Shown here piece after piece: positions 15,868 to 41,486 of a stretch of DNA of 64,000 nucleotides. This stretch comes from Lentinula raphanica (lineage: Eukaryota > Basidiomycota > Agaricomycetes > Agaricales > Omphalotaceae): NCBI GenBank assembly GCA_027919835.1, contig JANVFP010000009.1, positions 1,240,001 to 1,304,000 of the forward strand, in the 5' to 3' direction. A program made the position numbers and the translations under genes. Position 1 is the first letter of the stretch, and every line of letters starts with the position of its first letter. The notes beneath the pieces are model-generated. The model searched no databases. It saw nothing but the letters and a program-made list of their open reading frames with translations, and was not told the DNA's origin.

Positions 15868-17589
15868 ATGTATTTCAAGACTCTCTACTCTCTCGCGGCG
15901 TCCTTGACACTCGTCCTCTTCATGCCGTGCTCTGTTTCTGCTGCACCGTGGATGCGCCGGGATCTGGCTGGAGGAACGCAGGTTCCGTTGCCTAACCGCC
16001 TTTCGCCAACTAGTCCCGATGGGATTTTCGATCATAACGAGGCCGCGCGTCTTGGCCGCAAGGCGTTATACAAGCATCAATTCAACCTCCGAAATCTCCG
16101 AGCGAATACAGACGGAATCCCTGAGGTGCGTATCCTGATTCCTGTTCCCATGCCTTCCCTGAGGGTCAAACAATATATACCTGTGTTCGTCCGTTCGGCT
16201 TTCTTTAGGAGTCGGGAATGAAAATTCTGGACCTCTCCAGTCTCACACGCCAGGCCACAGCTCATGTTCGTCGCGGCGACGGCCCATCCCAAGTCAAGTC
16301 CTTCAATGGAGGCACTCATGCTCTAGGAAGAAGGTCCAAGAAGGAAGACGGTGCTGGAGAACCCTTGAAGGATGTGGGCAGCAATACAGAATATGATGGT
16401 AAGCGAGCGTTCGTCATATGCATTTGTAACAATGTCATCATTCCTATCCAGAGAAACTCAAGATCGGACCCGAGTCTGGTTTCCAAATTGACTGTGATAG
16501 TAGGTGTTTCACCTTCAAAATTTACAGGAGTCGGGGTTGACGTTAAATGTTCGTCCATAGCTGGATCATCCGATTTCTGGGTTGTCAACGCAGATTGTAC
16601 CACCGGTCCTTGTGAAGACAAGACCCAGAAGTATGACCCATCCAAGTCCAAGACTTCCGATCGTGAACCTGGCACCTTCACTATTCTGTACGGGGATCAT
16701 TCCACTGTGAAAGGTCCTATCTTCTCGGACGATGTGACTATTGCTGGCATCACTGTCAAGAATCAGACATTCTCCGCTGTCACCAAGGAATCGAACGCCT
16801 TTGAGAACGACCCGAGTTCAGGAATCATGGGCTTCGGCTGGCCCGTGATTTCAAACCTGCGAACACCACCCTGGTTCTTGAATGCTGTTCAGCAGGGCGT
16901 CATCAAGAAAAGGGAGTTTGGATTCTATCTTTCCTCGAAGAGAGGTTCCGAGATTTACCTGGGAGGCACTAACCCCGAGCATTACGAAGGCTCCTTGGAG
17001 TACCACGAGGTGGACTCTAGGGAAGGTTTCTGGAAGGTCAAGGACGGAAACATCCATCTAGGAGATGAGGCAGTTCTAAAGAATTTCCCCACTATCATCG
17101 ATTCCGGAACGACGCTCATGTATGGTCCTCCTGCTGCTGTCAAAGAATTTTACTCCAAGGTCGAAGGGGCGAAGGTATATGATGAGGAGGAAGGGTTTTA
17201 TACCTTCCCTTGTGATAAAGTTCCCAAGGTTGTGTTAAGCTGGGGCAAGGAGGGCAAGAAATTCGCCATTCCACCTGAGTAGTGAGTCAGAACACAGTCC
17301 GGATGTATGATGGAAACCCTGACGAAGTATATACTTAGCTTCAATTTGGGCAAGGCTGGGGAAGGTAGTTCGTCCTGTGTAGGGGCTCTAGCGGCTTCAG
17401 ACCTTGGATTAGGGGAAGCTTGGTTGTACGGTGATGTGTTCGTACATTCGCTTGACAAACATGGGCTGTCATTTAATATCTCCTTTTCCCAGCGTGATGA
17501 GGATCTTTTACACCGCCTTCCGTTTTGGAGAGGAGGAAATCAACAAGGGTGCAGTTGTCGGATTCGGGAAGTTGAAGGAGAAGAAGTAG
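15868..17589 (+). CDS. Secreted pepsin-family aspartic protease (A1), copy 1
   Basis: Extracellular endopeptidase of the fungal A1 (polyporopepsin-like) family. Six exons (15868-16125, 16209-16398, 16452-16499, 16561-17281, 17339-17437, 17493-17589) close to 470 residues. A signal peptide (TLYSLAASLTLVLFMPCSVSA) is followed by a propeptide of about 110-130 residues, containing GRRSKK, a likely processing site. The first active-site motif is DCDTGSSDFWV and the second is IIDSGTTLMYG. The Thr codon of the first DTG is split by a phase-1 intron (GAT A / CT GGA), so the motif is invisible in the raw frame. The C-terminus ends in VVGFGKLKEKK, the usual final beta-strand. Met was chosen at 15868, the first ATG before the signal peptide. 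It lies head-to-tail with a second A1 gene that shares the intron positions, so the two arose by tandem duplication. No inactivating change is visible. Confidence 0.9.
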
Positions 17590-28045: not shown

Positions 28046-28993
28046 CTTGGCAGATCGTTGATGATGACGGAGATCGTGGTGAGTACAAGAAGGGGAGGAG
28101 GACACAGTGGCCTCGCTACGCGTATGATGGTTCAACAAAGAGAGTAAACGCGTTCGCGAATCGTTGAACGCAAAAGCTGGCTTACATAAGTTTTCAACGC
28201 TCCCGCCATGGACATGGCCATTGGGAATGGCGAACCCTCCTCTCAATATCTTTTGAACGCTTCAAGCTCCAGACAACAGGCTAGGCCGTACGCGTAAATA
28301 TCAATGATGAGTAGGTCTTAATCTATGCACTACCAGTGGCACTGCTATACAGAGCGCCTGCTCCGGATCCAGTGATCTGTCAGTCTCCTCATCTAGTAGG
28401 GCCCGGCATACTATCAGCTACTATCAGACTCGATCCATCTTCCCGAGTCCGAGCACTTGTCCAAATCTATCCCTTTTTCAATTATTGCTCAAAAGCCTTA
28501 TAAAGATCATCGTCGATGAGTATACAAACGTGCACGAGGCTGATGAAGGCTCGGTGAAGGCTTATGAGACGCCAGAGTACATCTTGGCAGGGGGCATAAG
28601 TTGTCCTCTGTTGTTCTCAAAATGTAGTAGGTTCCTTGATGAACTGACTAGGTTCTCCGTTCGTGGCTAGGCAAACAATATGGACTTTCAAGGCAAGCCC
28701 GAAACTCAAAGCTTCAAGTTCGAGATTCAAGCTTCAAATCAAACCCATAGAATTCTCTCCCGCCGCATCATGCTAGCAGTTGAATCTCGATCACTGAAAC
28801 GGTTTGCACTTTAGACCGGGTTCGGAGAGCCACTCAGCGCTCGACTCGGTGTTCTTGCGATTTCACACAACCGGCGTCAGCTTGGCTGAAGATATCTCAT
28901 CTTACTCGATTCTAAGGCACTATAAATGCTCAATCTATCTGCTACATACCCCTCCACATTTTCTTCGAGCTGGTACCTCGACTCTCAGTGTCA
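28046..28993. other. Divergent intergenic region
   Basis: Shared promoter space between MYND copy B (-) and the lyase (+). A TATAAAT sequence lies at 28920-28926, about 70 bp before the lyase ATG, and is a plausible TATA box. No gene is supported. Confidence 0.5.
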
Positions 28994-29827
28994 ATGACTT
29001 CCTCAGGCTGGCCCTTCTCCAAACCCACGGTTTTTACCCATGTGGTCGCCTTCCTTTTCCTCGCCTCCTTCTTCCTATGGTCAGTCACCGCTCTCGACAC
29101 ATCAGTTGCCCCGGGGGGGAACTTTGATTTTTCCAACTGGGAGCTTCAGATGTGTATCGGCTCCGCGGGGTCTCCCAAGACCGAATCCAGCTCGTCTCTC
29201 AAGGGCGACGGTGGGTTCGAGGACGACCAGTATTTCTATACCTCTAGTGATGATGGTGCTTTGGTCATGAAAGTACCTGGATCGCCTTCGTCTTCTGGTT
29301 GTGTCACAACTACGAACTCGCTTCATTGTCGTACGGAGTTGCGTGAGCTGGGTAGCTGGGACCCTCAGGACACCAACAAGCTCACTGTGTCGCTTGCTGT
29401 CGCACAAGCTGACGACAGTGAGCATGGGACTGTTATCGGGCAAATTCATATCGATGACAGCGTTTCTACCAAGGTTCGACAAACCACCGCATTGGTCTAT
29501 TTTATTTATTCTGACGAGTTACACTTTCAGCCGGTTATCGAGCTGTATTACAACAACAAAGGCGTCATATCAGCCGGTGTGGAACAAACACGTAGTGGAG
29601 GAAATGAAAAGTTTACGACTTTTGAAACTACTGTTCCACTTGGGACCAAGTTTACGTACGAGATTGACTACAGTGGGGGAGTGCTTAAAGTCACTGTCAA
29701 TGGGGAGGAGATGACGCTCGATACATACCAGTTGGACTCACCCAAAAGCTATTTCAAGGCTGGGAACTATAATCAGGGCTCTAGTCCATCGGAGGTCCAT
29801 TTTTACTCCCTCTTGATCCAGCATTAG
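28994..29827 (+). CDS. Secreted alginate-lyase-2-fold polysaccharide lyase (PL7-like)
   Basis: Two exons (28994-29473 and 29531-29827) give 258 residues. The frame stays open through the proposed 57-nt intron (GTTCGA...TTTCAG), but removing it joins the segment DDSVSTK to PVIELYYNNKG as expected for the fold. An N-terminal hydrophobic helix (HVVAFLFLASFFLWSVTA) is a signal peptide. Diagnostic motifs of the alginate lyase 2 / PL7 superfamily are present in order: FDFSNWELQ (about 45-52), RTELRE (113-118), QIH (150-152) and YFKAGNYNQ (234-242); the Arg, Gln, His and Tyr of these motifs form the active site in characterised members. Such enzymes cleave 1,4-linked uronans by beta-elimination. In a fungus the natural substrate could be glucuronan (as for PL20) or alginate; the sequence alone does not tell. 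ATG 28994 is the first Met before the signal peptide. Confidence 0.85.
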   Translation: MTSSGWPFSKPTVFTHVVAFLFLASFFLWSVTALDTSVAPGGNFDFSNWELQMCIGSAGSPKTESSSSLKGDGGFEDDQYFYTSSDDGALVMKVPGSPSSSGCVTTTNSLHCRTELRELGSWDPQDTNKLTVSLAVAQADDSEHGTVIGQIHIDDSVSTKVRQTTALVYFIYSDELHFQPVIELYYNNKGVISAGVEQTRSGGNEKFTTFETTVPLGTKFTYEIDYSGGVLKVTVNGEEMTLDTYQLDSPKSYFKAGNYNQGSSPSEVHFYSLLIQH

Positions 29828-36400: not shown

Positions 36401-37312
36401 CATTAAAACTGAGCCGCTAAGTGGGGAACATTCGGAACTTCGTGACCTGAGTCTTATGAAGTGCGTAGTTCAATAGCCCTTCAATAGCGTAGAATCATGA
36501 GCTCAAAAACGTGTAAGGATAAGGAATCTAGGCTACGGTGGGAAATGATACCTGGTGATAATTGTGATTGTTCGGAGGAAATGAGGGCTCGAAAGGCAGA
36601 ATGGATTATTGATAGGACGATGATGTTCCGCGCGAATGTTGTCACTTGTTGAACGATGAAATGTGTTGTGAACCTGGGTTTACCCCCAGTCAGATCGAAC
36701 TTTGAGTTGTGTATTGTACTTACAAAAGATTCAGGAACCTGCGATGGGTTATAGATAGAACTTTCATGCTCCACGACCGAGTTCGAAGCGATGAAAACTT
36801 TGAAGGTATTATGAAGCTTGAACCTTGTTTGAGCTTGAAGTTACTGATAGTGTAGATCTTAGAAGGACTCGTGTCGATGTCAGTACCAGAGCTTTCCATT
36901 TGCACGTTAGAGTGACAGGCCAGCCGGCCATCTGAAGTGCTTAGTAGGATCTGCGGACGAAGCAGGTGAATTTAGAACAAGTTGGGAGGGCTCAGTACCA
37001 TGCGAGCCTGCCGGCGAACTGTGCCTTAAAAGTCAGAAATTGTGTATAAAAGTAGGATAAATCGAGACATACATCTCTAAATTTAACCCCAACTTGAATC
37101 AGGCACCATTTCCTAATTTAATTGTTTTGTCGAACCTTGGACCCTTGCCGACTCCTCCGTAAGTACAGCTCTTTCCGTTCTATAAATTTATCACCATACA
37201 AATATAAGAAATGATAAATAATCGTCTCGGTGAGAAGCGTTGTCAACTTTTTCGCCCCCTCTCCCCCTTCAGTTGACAACTCCACCCAAACTTTTATCCG
37301 TCTCTCTCCAGA
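33415..37312. other. Gene-poor region with an old tandem duplication
   Basis: Nearly 4 kb without a supported gene. All frames are short; several small ORFs (for example 33940-34194 and 34556-34804 on minus) sit in repeated sequence and carry no recognisable content. The region contains the tandem duplication listed separately. The stretch 36900-37312 is the likely promoter and leader of the repeat-peptide precursor and is rich in CT tracts just before the ATG. Confidence 0.5.
34095..35560. repeat. Diverged direct tandem duplication, about 0.75 kb per copy
   Basis: Copy 1 (about 34095-34850) and copy 2 (about 34876-35560) share, in the same order and orientation, AATCACAAGTATCTAAAAGG, GCTAAGTGGTAGAAT, TGCCAAGGGTAC, ACTAATCAAC, TATCGCAATAAACAGCAA, GAGCAATGCATGAGA, CAAAACCTTGTATG, GACGAGCCCGA and AAACCATTTTCGC-like blocks, with substitutions and small indels between them. 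Neither copy has a coding frame. This is a segmental tandem duplication of non-coding sequence, old enough to have diverged considerably. Confidence 0.8.
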
Positions 37313-37883
37313 ATGCGACCAAGTTCTTTCATAGCTGGTGCTATGGCCATCATCTTCTCAATCCTCATCAACTGTTCTCAAGCTGCTCCGATCGAGGTTA
37401 GTTGACCCGGGCGCTCAGTCTACATAATTGGGTAGAAATAGAAAAATAACGCTCAAAATCTCTCCTTTTCGTTTCGTTTAGAATTTACTACCAAGAGCTG
37501 GTACTGGAGAAGCTAGCGCAGCGGACTGGCGTAGAGCAGGCACTGGAGAGGCTAGCGCGGCGGATTGGCGTCGGTCTGGTACTGGAGAAGCCAGCGCAGC
37601 ATACTGGAAACGCTCGGGCACTGGAGAGGCTAGTGCAGCGGACTGGCGTCGATCGGGTACTGGAGAAGCCAGTGCTGCAGACTGGCGTCGGTCGGGCACA
37701 GGCGAAGCCAGTGCTGCCGATTGGAGGAGGGCTGGGACAGGAGAGAGCCGTACTGCTGATTGGAAGCGTTCGGGCACAGGCGAAGCCAGTGCTGCCGATT
37801 GGAGGAGGGCTGGTACAGGAGAGAGCCGTACTGCTGATTGGAAACGCTCTGGAACGAACGAAGAAAGCGCCGCCGATTGGTGA
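37313..37883 (+). CDS. Secreted Kex2-processed repeat peptide precursor (KEP-like)
   Basis: Two exons (37313-37396, 37482-37883) give 161 residues. Exon 1 is a signal peptide (SFIAGAMAIIFSILINCSQA / APIE); exon 2 starts NLLPR and is then wholly made of ten 13-residue units. Each unit is an 11-residue core ending in Trp plus a dibasic Kex2 site (RR or KR); the tenth ends at the stop without one. Cores are AGTGEASAADW (units 1-2), SGTGEASAAYW (3), SGTGEASAADW (4, 5, 6, 8), AGTGESRTADW (7, 9) and SGTNEESAADW (10). Kex2 cleavage and basic-residue trimming in the Golgi would release ten free peptides. The layout is that of fungal KEP proteins, which include alpha-type pheromones and RiPP precursors. 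Basidiomycete mating pheromones are normally farnesylated CaaX peptides, so a mating role is not implied. No UstYa-like cyclase or receptor gene is seen in the window. Function is unknown; a signalling peptide is my inference. Confidence 0.88.
37497..37880 (+). repeat. Ten 39-bp coding repeats (last one 33 bp)
   Basis: Units begin at 37497, 37536, 37575, 37614, 37653, 37692, 37731, 37770, 37809 and 37848. Units 6-7 (37692-37769) and 8-9 (37770-37847) form a 78-bp tandem duplication differing at only about three positions, so the array expanded recently by doubling a pair. Older units use different synonymous codons (ACT GGA versus ACA GGC; GCT AGC versus GCC AGT) while keeping the peptide, a sign of purifying selection on the core. 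Confidence 0.9.
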
Positions 37884-40800
37884 TACATATATATCATCGG
37901 CTTGTTCACTCCTACGTACGCTCGCACTGGGTCGGTCGTCCTCACAACAACTCCGATACATCATCACATCCCCTTGGAAATCGTATCTCGATTTTCCAAA
38001 AACTCGTCGCTCGTCGCTCTTCACTCAATTTGCTTTTCATACACTCTCTCACTCTTTTGGGGCCCTCCAACTTTCTTGACCGTGTTCTCTATTCTGGGCG
38101 ACAAGAACTCGCCCTTATAATTCTCCTCGGATTCCTCCAGCACTCAGTACCTTCAGCTTCAGCTTCAGTATTTCACTTGCCGCAGAGTCTGACCTATTCA
38201 TCGGAGTGCATGAAAACCTGACAATCCTTATTTTCTCCCAAAAATTGGCTTTCCATTGGTATCGCTTTCTGCACGGACTCTTGTTGTATATACAGAGGTG
38301 TTTCGGTCTACTTAGGTACATTAGTCACATTGTATCGTTCAAATACTCATCGGGTTGAAAATGTACGATAGTATGATTCGTTCCATTCCAGGGTGACTGT
38401 TGTAAGTATATGATTTGGTCCGATGCAGATGGGTTTCAACTTTCGAATCCAGTTGTGTCGCTTGTCACATTCATCTTGATGTATGGACAGGAAATAGGTA
38501 ACTGAGATCATTCCTACCTTGGCACTGGCAGTGTAAAGATACATACATCGTCGTGTATCCAGTTGCCGACGCTTTTTCCGTGACTGGTGTAGGATCCAAA
38601 ATGTACTACTATACAGCCGTTACCGGGGAGTTTCGAACAAACCCAAGAATACCTGCACAAATTCTTCAGTCCTTGTCTGCTTTTAGCTTGATCTTTCTCA
38701 CCAACTCGTTCCCGTCTCCGTGGCTCTCTTCGGGTCTTGAAGGCCTCTGAGGTCTTAACGCGCTCTAGCTCAGTTCCCTTCCCTTCCCTTCCCCACACAA
38801 GTGCGATCACAATCCGGTCAATGGGTTGTATAACCCTTATGTTAAGGTATCTTCCCATCTTCCCACAACTAGAACTTTGAAGTATGTATAGGCCGATTCT
38901 TTCGATAATCACTTTGAAGTCTTTCCAGAGTCTTTCGGACTCGTTTGAGATGAGATTGAATTCCCCATCAAAAAAGTGCGGTAAGAGAACGACCGTGGAC
39001 GGCCGCGAGTCCCCCTGGCTGCCCTTGGCAGGAGGTGCGTGGATGACGGTCTGCTCAAAAAGCGGGTTCAAAGCGTTTCCGGACCATTCTTTGAGCGATG
39101 GGGTTATACATACATTACTAGATCCAGCCCGTTGGAATTTGAGGGAAAATGAACAGGTTTGCACATTGGAAGCCGGGACGTCGAGTCTGGCCCCGTAATC
39201 ATTATTCCGAATATTCGAAACATTTGAAGAATTACACAATTCACTCTATAATTCATGATGGGTTAGATAGAAGCCTGTAGGAACACAAGAACACGATAGA
39301 CACTGCGTCATACCTCATGTAAATCCCAGGCCTCGGTATGAACAGACCATTTTCTCGAACATTTTCTCGAACATGAGAACTTTGGGGAAGTAGGCTGAGA
39401 AAGGAATAAATTATGCATGCATGATGGTGCCATCCACGGGCTAACGGAAGCAGCACAATGTTGTTGAGAATGTCGACATGGACATCCGAAGCATTCCGAA
39501 GAGGGCTCGACCAACGTACCATCCGAGAACTAATCTTGATTTCATGAACATATCTAGTCTCTTCCAGTCCATGCTATATTGAAAGCTCTCAAGCAGTCTT
39601 GTGTGAATGGATGACATCTGACGGCCGCACGGCTCCTGTGAAATAATCAGTCCACCCTAAAATCAGTTCCGAGGCCTGATGATAATTCTGAGCCGTGCTG
39701 GCAGCCCTTTGCCAAATTTTGCTTGTTCTCCTGGCGTACCAAAACCTGCTACACAGGGAGTACTGTGTCCTATGACGGAGTCTATGTAATACCCAAAGAG
39801 ACGCGTCGAGATTTGGTACAAACCGTTGGTTCATCGGCGAGGGGAATTGTCCTATCAATACGAATGAGGACCTGATAGGTGCGAGCATCACACTCGTACG
39901 TGGATCCTGAGGCATGGAGACTTTTTTTCGAAGCACACCCGGGAGTTTTGCGCAAAACAAGGTGAGCTAATTAAAAAAGAAGACATCGGAGTCAGGAAGA
40001 ATGTTTAAGGAAGATCAAATGACATGGAATTTCGGGATCGCAGGTATTTCATGATCTACCCTCGCATAGAGATATAAGGCTTTGGGTAAATTTTGTAGAA
40101 AGCAGGGAATTCGAGACCTGAGAGGGACTGCGCATCCCATGGCTAGTTGAGACCCAGGCGCGTATTTCCCTAGGGTTGGGAATCTGGAGACACGCTTGAA
40201 GAGTTGGGTGTGATTTCATAATCACTCAATCCTACTAGTTGTACCGCACTCCCATGAGTGCAGCGTTGACTCGACAGGACTGAAGCTGAAGACGGGATAG
40301 TCATCACTACATTGAGGTTCATTATGCGACGTGGCAAACGTTTAAACCTGTGTGTTCAAGTACAGAGGACCATCGAGATGTTGGACCCCACGTGATGGAG
40401 AATCTGGAGCAAAGAAAAAAGTCCAAGTTAACGCCAGAATGGTACAGATGTGGATCTGAAGACTAAGTGACCTGATGCTGATCCTGAGGAGCAAGAGCAG
40501 AAAAATGTTGAGAGGCATGTTCTGACGTGTTCTGACCCGCATGGCCCCTCGATCCGCGACGAACTTGTCATGATAGGCATTGCACATTTGAAACCACACG
40601 GTCAGTTTTTCCGTCTCATTGCACCACGATTCGCCAGTAACTGTAAATGAATACTTAGTGGACGAAAAAGGATAGCGTCAAGTACGCTGCTTGATATCAG
40701 AGATGCTTCATGCTCGTTTCTGAGCCGTACCGTATACGCCGGTAACTGTGACTGGATAGTCAGTGGACAAAAAGAGATAGCGTCAAGTACGGTGCTTGAT

Positions 40801-41486
40801 ATCAGATATGCACCATGCTCGTTTCAGAGCCGTACCTTGGAGCTTTAGGATACCCTGAATGTGGAAGTAGAGCAAAAATACTGAACCGAGTTCCTGTACA
40901 GTCGAAAGGCGCAGAAAAGGGGATATTATGGTCCTGTTTGATCAAGATCATCATACTCTTGATTGCACAACACAGAGCCGATCGCGAAGAGGCTCCGTGA
41001 AGAGCGCGAGCTTCGAGAGACTTTGACTTGCCCTATTGTCGAATTGTCGATGTCGATCCCTCACGAAGTGTAGTCGGAAGCGATGGAAATGTTCGCCATT
41101 TTTCCGACGTAGTACGTTCTTCGGTTTCGTCAAATGGGATCTCGGGATGCCTGAAATATTGTTAGGCAGGAGGAGTTGATTTTTGCACCACTCACCAATG
41201 ATGGTGTGTCAGGAGGTCCCAGGACAGGGCTTTGGGTTTTCCGTTTTCTACTTAACCGTAACGCGAGCCACCTACTTGACAATGACACAAATGTATCTCA
41301 GGTTACTCGCGATGATCCCGTGAGATTTTGAGTACTGGCTGATGCTGTATTTCTGGACTTCCATGAATTATGTGGCAAAAAAATAACTAGGACTTGAATC
41401 TAAATCAAACGGTAACCTGGACGTACGAGGGCTAACTTGAGCCAATCTCATTGATGGAGGGTAACCACGACTCACTATTACACGCT
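37884..41486. other. 3.6 kb with unresolved minus-strand coding traces
   Basis: No complete gene could be built. Two minus-strand stretches look more like protein than noise. One is 38514-39239 (241 open codons, including ARLDVPASNVQTCSFSLKFQ and LNPLFEQTVIHAPPAKG). The other is about 40530-40633, which follows a good acceptor (TTTACAG) and reads GESWCNETEKLTVWFQMCNA, then HDKFVADRGAM. They may be exons of one or two decayed or fast-evolving genes. I do not recognise a family and could not join the pieces in frame. The rest shows nothing. Confidence 0.3.
40634..40836. repeat. Tandem duplication, two copies of about 98 bp
   Basis: 40634-40731 and 40739-40836 are direct repeats (shared blocks GATAGCGTCAAGTACG, GCTTGATATCAGA, CATGCTCGTTTC, GAGCCGTACC) with about 15 percent differences by eye. 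The left copy covers the acceptor of the possible exon at 40530-40633, so the duplication also doubled that splice site. Confidence 0.75.

Follow-up and report, generated by a model that had tools for sequence, protein, structure and literature searches.

A gene of Lentinula raphanica that lies in the 64-kb stretch of DNA analysed here (the window, C9:1240001-1304000 of a 49-Mb genome in 75 contigs) is, judging from its predicted peptides, a member of the KEP 2599/SGTGEASAADW family of KEX2-processed repeat proteins (KEPs). It is a real gene, but of an already described kind: SGTGEASAADW, its precursor class and homologs of its precursor have all been published (Vogt et al. 2022, PMC9769878), and the term "undescribed" used in the original prediction must therefore be withdrawn. 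What is new here is a paralog on contig C29 of the same genome, two proteins from Lentinula, listed as hypothetical, in which the peptide of that paralog (SGTNEGSAADW) recurs, and one remote relative.

In the sections of Vogt et al. available to us, SGTGEASAADW is reported as confirmed by mass spectrometry with synthetic standards in fruiting bodies of shiitake (L. edodes), its precursor is named KEP 2599 and credited with a sevenfold repeat, and four homologs are reported, Gymnopus and Rhodocollybia included; the gene studied here is possibly one of the homologs they list (PMC9769878). Four of its ten cores match the published peptide exactly and the other six are variants of it. Both precursors are thus KEPs with tandem repeats and share an identical mature peptide, whereas seven repeats are reported for shiitake and ten, with variant cores, are found here, the comparison being one of peptides and not of whole precursors. 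The KEP class itself was defined in two genome surveys (PMC6339444, PMC7329392), in whose main texts, as far as these were accessible, no word begins with GTGE or ADW. Beyond one review (PMC10417677), no later work on SGTGEASAADW-type peptides emerged from the portions of the literature covered. The sequences SGTNEGSAADW, AGTGEASAADW and SGTGDSSAADW were not found in main texts, but could be given in Fig. S10e of the PMC9769878 supplement.

The precursor gene and its repeat array

The gene extends from ATG to stop over positions 37313-37883 of the window, exactly as originally predicted, and consists of two exons of 84 bp and 402 bp (stop included) separated by an 85-bp intron that was absent from that prediction (Table 1). 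Its spliced product of 161 aa comprises a signal peptide, a short pro-region and ten 11-residue cores. The signal peptide was called by inspection and hydropathy, from a hydrophobic N-terminal leader of 24 residues that ends in S-Q-A. The description of the product as a secreted repeat-peptide precursor with ten cores and no other domain is borne out, the secretion signal being a predicted one and the precursor matching no Pfam family up to E 0.1. The further claim that the cores are bounded by RR or KR stands for the nine junctions between them, all of which are dibasic (six RR and three KR), and falls at the two ends of the array. A single Arg, the last residue of NLLPR, stands before core 1, and core 10 runs directly into the stop codon, so that dibasic bounding on both sides does not apply to every core.

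Table 1. Features of the precursor gene, in positions of the window
Feature	Position	Strand	Remarks
Possible TATA box (TATAAAA), 5' of the gene	37045..37051	+	putative, from reading of the sequence
Possible 5' untranslated region intron (GTAAGT...CAG)	37159..37272	+	putative, from consensus splice ends
Exon 1: predicted signal peptide MRPSSFIAGAMAIIFSILINCSQA (24 aa, predicted cleavage site), then APIE	37313..37396	+	sequence, hydropathy
Intron, 85 bp, phase 0, GT-AG	37397..37481	+	position and phase match C29 paralog
Exon 2: NLLPR as pro-region, then ten cores of 11 aa with nine RR/KR junctions, stop	37482..37883	+	
Repeat array: ten units, 39-bp period	37497..37880	+	dibasic site missing from last unit

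The ten cores fall into five sequences: SGTGEASAADW (four copies), AGTGEASAADW and AGTGESRTADW (two copies each), and SGTGEASAAYW and SGTNEESAADW (one copy each). The array is recognised by Tandem Repeats Finder at periods of 39, 78 and 117 bp, and it exceeds chance expectation: an open frame with at least three similar dibasic-bounded units occurs at one place in the window and at none in 50 first-order Markov resamples. Between units 6-7 and units 8-9 only 3 of 78 bases differ, suggesting a recent 78-bp tandem duplication and hence a number of units that is changing by this process.

The pattern of substitution is that of a coding sequence. Third codon positions account for 280 of the 402 pairwise differences among core units, a count that was not reached once when the 33 core columns were shuffled 100,000 times. 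Within the array, core pN/pS is 0.154; the five regular units of the C29 paralog give 0.019, and comparison of the two paralogs gives 0.195, these last two values excluding a decayed C29 unit. At the dibasic codons pN/pS is 0.38 and the changes are K to R. All of these ratios are descriptive, unit pairs not being independent. Given the excess of third-position differences and the low core pN/pS, purifying selection appears to act on the frame. These observations bear directly on the idea that we are dealing with an uncut structural repeat protein, or with a non-coding tandem repeat carrying an accidental open frame. The recent 78-bp duplication and the two antisense frames that are also open over the array are what such an idea can draw on; against it stand the third-position bias, the low pN/pS, the occurrence of a matching intron in a diverged paralog and the retention of dibasic sites in relatives, and the free peptide detected in shiitake refutes it for that species (PMC9769878). 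We regard it as scarcely credible for the gene studied here.

Processing and nature of the product

The precursor is very probably a KEP whose peptides are released by kexin cutting and carboxypeptidase trimming. The signal peptide would direct it into the secretory pathway, where a Golgi kexin would cut after each RR or KR, and probably also behind the single R that precedes core 1; a Kex1-type carboxypeptidase would then trim the basic residues from the cut peptides, releasing up to ten linear 11-mers, chiefly SGTGEASAADW and its variants. For L. raphanica we infer secretion, kexin cutting and the Kex1 step from the architecture of the precursor and from the published free peptide in shiitake; the same standing belongs to the receptor and role considered below. 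The genome contains two matches to the kexin P-domain, one of them partial and with an internal stop.

The architecture of signal peptide and dibasic-separated repeats is equally that of dikaritin precursors such as those of the ustiloxins (PMC9769878), and genes with UstYa domains do exist elsewhere in the genome, with 13 exon matches on C17, C12 and C19. A cyclised RiPP of this type, made with the help of modification enzymes, is nonetheless extremely unlikely to be the product. None of the 13 UstYa matches lies on C9, the contig of the window, and this argues against cyclisation; Tyr is present in only one of the ten cores; and the shiitake peptide is reported as SGTGEASAADW in a study whose KEP peptides are described, in the sections available, as linear and minimally modified (PMC9769878). 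Pfam matches among 20 other open frames of the window suggest no peptide-modification enzyme, and no repeat precursor was found near the UstYa matches in four 10-kb stretches, two of which overlap by 200 bp. As a separate observation, UstYa/DUF3328 exon matches cluster within some 6 kb at G000:C17:1065188-1071366, with more on C19 and C12, and may mark a RiPP-type cluster.

An alpha-factor-type pheromone precursor retained in basidiomycetes is likewise very unlikely, if a little less so. Its repeats would be separated by Kex2 sites, as they are here and in the alpha-pheromone-like KEPs of basidiomycetes, some of which yield Trp-ended peptides according to the survey text at hand (PMC6339444), and a DPPIV_N gene is present on C19. 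All ten cores, however, start with AG or SG after the cleavage site, and it is this lack of an XA or XP dipeptide for STE13 that speaks against the reading. A search of the genome for the STE2 receptor, run with no positive control, gave no match. A linear peptide released by Kex2 and Kex1 is accordingly the best reading of the gene, ahead of both a cyclised RiPP and an alpha-type pheromone.

The a-type mating pheromones of basidiomycetes carry a C-terminal CaaX prenylation motif and have no signal peptide. This class was considered and is ruled out by the ADW-stop end of the precursor and by its leader. Matches to the STE3 receptor are found on C36, C1, C8 and C23, none beside the precursor gene. 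The original prediction saw the product as a soluble peptide of a basidiomycete, separate from the lipidated mating pheromones, and these data agree with it. Several of the STE3 matches lie at G000:C36:85240-172227, which is probably a mating-type B region.

A paralog and relatives of the -ADW family

A second KEP gene, with cores of the SGTNEGSAADW type, is located on the minus strand at C29:302869-303276. It possesses a leader and a 63-bp intron in the same place and phase as that of the gene in the window, and its second unit has decayed to SSVTNEGSVVVL, so that tight constraint does not hold for every unit. A 9-kb stretch around it (G000:C29:298500-307500) matches the window within the array only. 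Since its flanks find no counterpart in the window, the paralog seems not to stem from a recent segmental duplication. A pattern of A-D-W followed by two codons in MRN or MGN form has 82 matches in the genome, as against 57 for a reversed-pattern control; eight fall in the precursor gene, four in the C29 gene, and the other 70 form no array. No further -ADW array was thus recovered from the whole genome by this pattern, which would miss arrays joined by KK; outside the two genes, the tightest pair on one strand lies on C3, with 962 bp between its matches.

Four relatives were recovered by protein searches. One is a metagenome protein with SGTGDSSAADW (P0001). Two are annotated as hypothetical proteins of Lentinula, namely F5051DRAFT_437315 of L. 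edodes (P0002) and F5876DRAFT_73269 of Lentinula aff. lateritia (P0003), and both have SGTNEGSAADW and SGTSEGSAADW as cores. The fourth (P0004) is a remote protein that has drifted far, with cores such as GGTNPGKGADW. No protein with SGTGEASAADW itself came from these searches, in each of which 8000 candidates were scored, and a profile-based search found no further homolog among the 8000 candidates sharing most words. Against Pfam, four of the six proteins (the precursor and five relatives) gave nothing; the matches of the C29 protein to MadM (E 0.098) and of P0002 to Vir1p (E 0.036) are far below the cut-off and were taken as chance. Neither array of the L. raphanica genome is close to the leader of the L. 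edodes protein P0002. In the annotated P0002 sequence the repeats break off after NEGT, probably owing to a false intron, and the deposited gene model may be wrong. This suggests that false introns of this sort could let such genes escape proteome surveys.

Cutting the six proteins at KR and RR yields 34 pieces, of which 29 are 11 residues long, in 13 distinct sequences. The five excluded pieces are the decayed C29 unit (12 residues), the end of P0001 (5), the last piece of the P0002 array (7, trimmed at the point where the repeats give out) and, from the C terminus of P0004, two pieces of 12 and 13 residues. In all 29 full-length cores G2, A9 and W11 are invariant, whereas the other core positions vary among the six genes. 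Since the pieces are themselves made by KR/RR cutting, retention of the dibasic sites was scored separately on the uncut proteins: 26 of their 31 Trp residues are followed by KR or RR, three stand at the protein end, and the remaining two, in the tails of P0002 and P0004 outside the array, precede neither. A lone Arg can be read before core 1 in all six proteins. Free drift of the cores among relatives together with loss of the dibasic sites, the outcome that the original prediction had named as fatal to it, is hence not what the six genes display. SGTGEASAADW itself is a published peptide; the second peptide, the Lentinula copies and the G2-A9-W11 frame offer concrete probes of whether these mushroom peptides act as signals.

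Possible roles of the peptide

As to function, our tentative preference, held with rather less than even confidence and placed slightly ahead of an outward role, goes by analogy to a signal that the fungus directs at itself, in hyphae that fruit or aggregate. The peptide would pass as a soluble signal between hyphae of the same fungus while tissues form, and G2, A9 and the C-terminal W would be its recognition points. The analogy is with MiSSP8 of Laccaria bicolor (Pellegrin et al. 2019). Its repeat motif is probably DWRR, a string that occurs in none of the papers mentioning MiSSP8 among the matches listed. By its published descriptions, as far as the sources could be consulted, MiSSP8 resembles the precursor studied here in being a small secreted repeat protein with probable KEX2 processing, a motif shared by saprotrophs and expression in fruiting bodies (PMC7105643, PMC8708209, PMC7329392, PMC13430161). 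Its repeats are described as likely KEX2-processed, and it is said to promote hyphal aggregation and mantle formation (PMC13430161); it is up-regulated in ectomycorrhiza and fruiting bodies (PMC8708209); and its repetitive motif, found also in saprotrophs, is perhaps relevant to fruiting (PMC7105643).

On the other hand, C. cinerea is reported to have grown and fruited without visible change when six of its kep genes were knocked out, and this counts against a self-directed signal (PMC9769878), as does the fact that no receptor for the peptide was found. Peptides ending in Trp are made by one of the six (490115), although none of them is assigned to the -ADW family in the sections available (PMC9769878). 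Given these null results, Vogt et al. favour an interaction with the biotic environment (PMC9769878). With the same precursor and the same processing, the peptide might indeed act outward, as a defence peptide or effector directed at competitors, bacteria, animals or plants, a reading that we consider possible if somewhat doubtful. In its favour are the six knockouts without axenic phenotype and the description of some KEP products as virulence factors or modulators of mutualism (PMC9769878). SGTGEASAADW is nevertheless short, acidic and hydrophilic (pI about 4.05, charge about -2.5, GRAVY -0.51), unlike a cationic membrane-active peptide, and these properties argue against a membrane-active antimicrobial. 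Synthetic KEP peptides were reported to be devoid of antibacterial activity, the inclusion of SGTGEASAADW among them being unstated in the sections at hand (PMC9769878), and amino-acid change in the cores is low relative to synonymous change rather than accelerated.

Among other published peptides, a close parallel is provided by the Pleurotus KEPs 1091723 and 1439342 (SGVAADW and MSGVAADW). They share the C-terminal -AADW, the KEP architecture and an origin in fruiting bodies, and are set apart, by their published peptides, through a shorter core and through STE13 dipeptides that are absent here (PMC9769878). It is conceivable, though in our judgement unlikely, that -ADW peptides make up a hormone-like family of mushroom-forming fungi that would include the Pleurotus SGVAADW and perhaps the MiSSP8 peptide. 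Its members, among them two distinct soluble ligands in a single genome (SGTGEASAADW, and SGTNEGSAADW from the C29 paralog) built on a constant G2-A9-W11 frame, would be perceived by a receptor and would control hyphal aggregation in the fruiting body.

Apart from the peptide gene, Pfam matches were obtained for three of the 20 other open frames scanned in the window, corresponding to a DEAD-box helicase, an alginate lyase (Alginate_lyase2, PF08787, in an open frame at 28916-29824) and a eukaryotic aspartyl protease (PF00026, in an open frame at 16209-17279). A two-copy tandem repeat of 105 bp occupies positions 40632-40836, about 2.7 kb downstream of the precursor gene.
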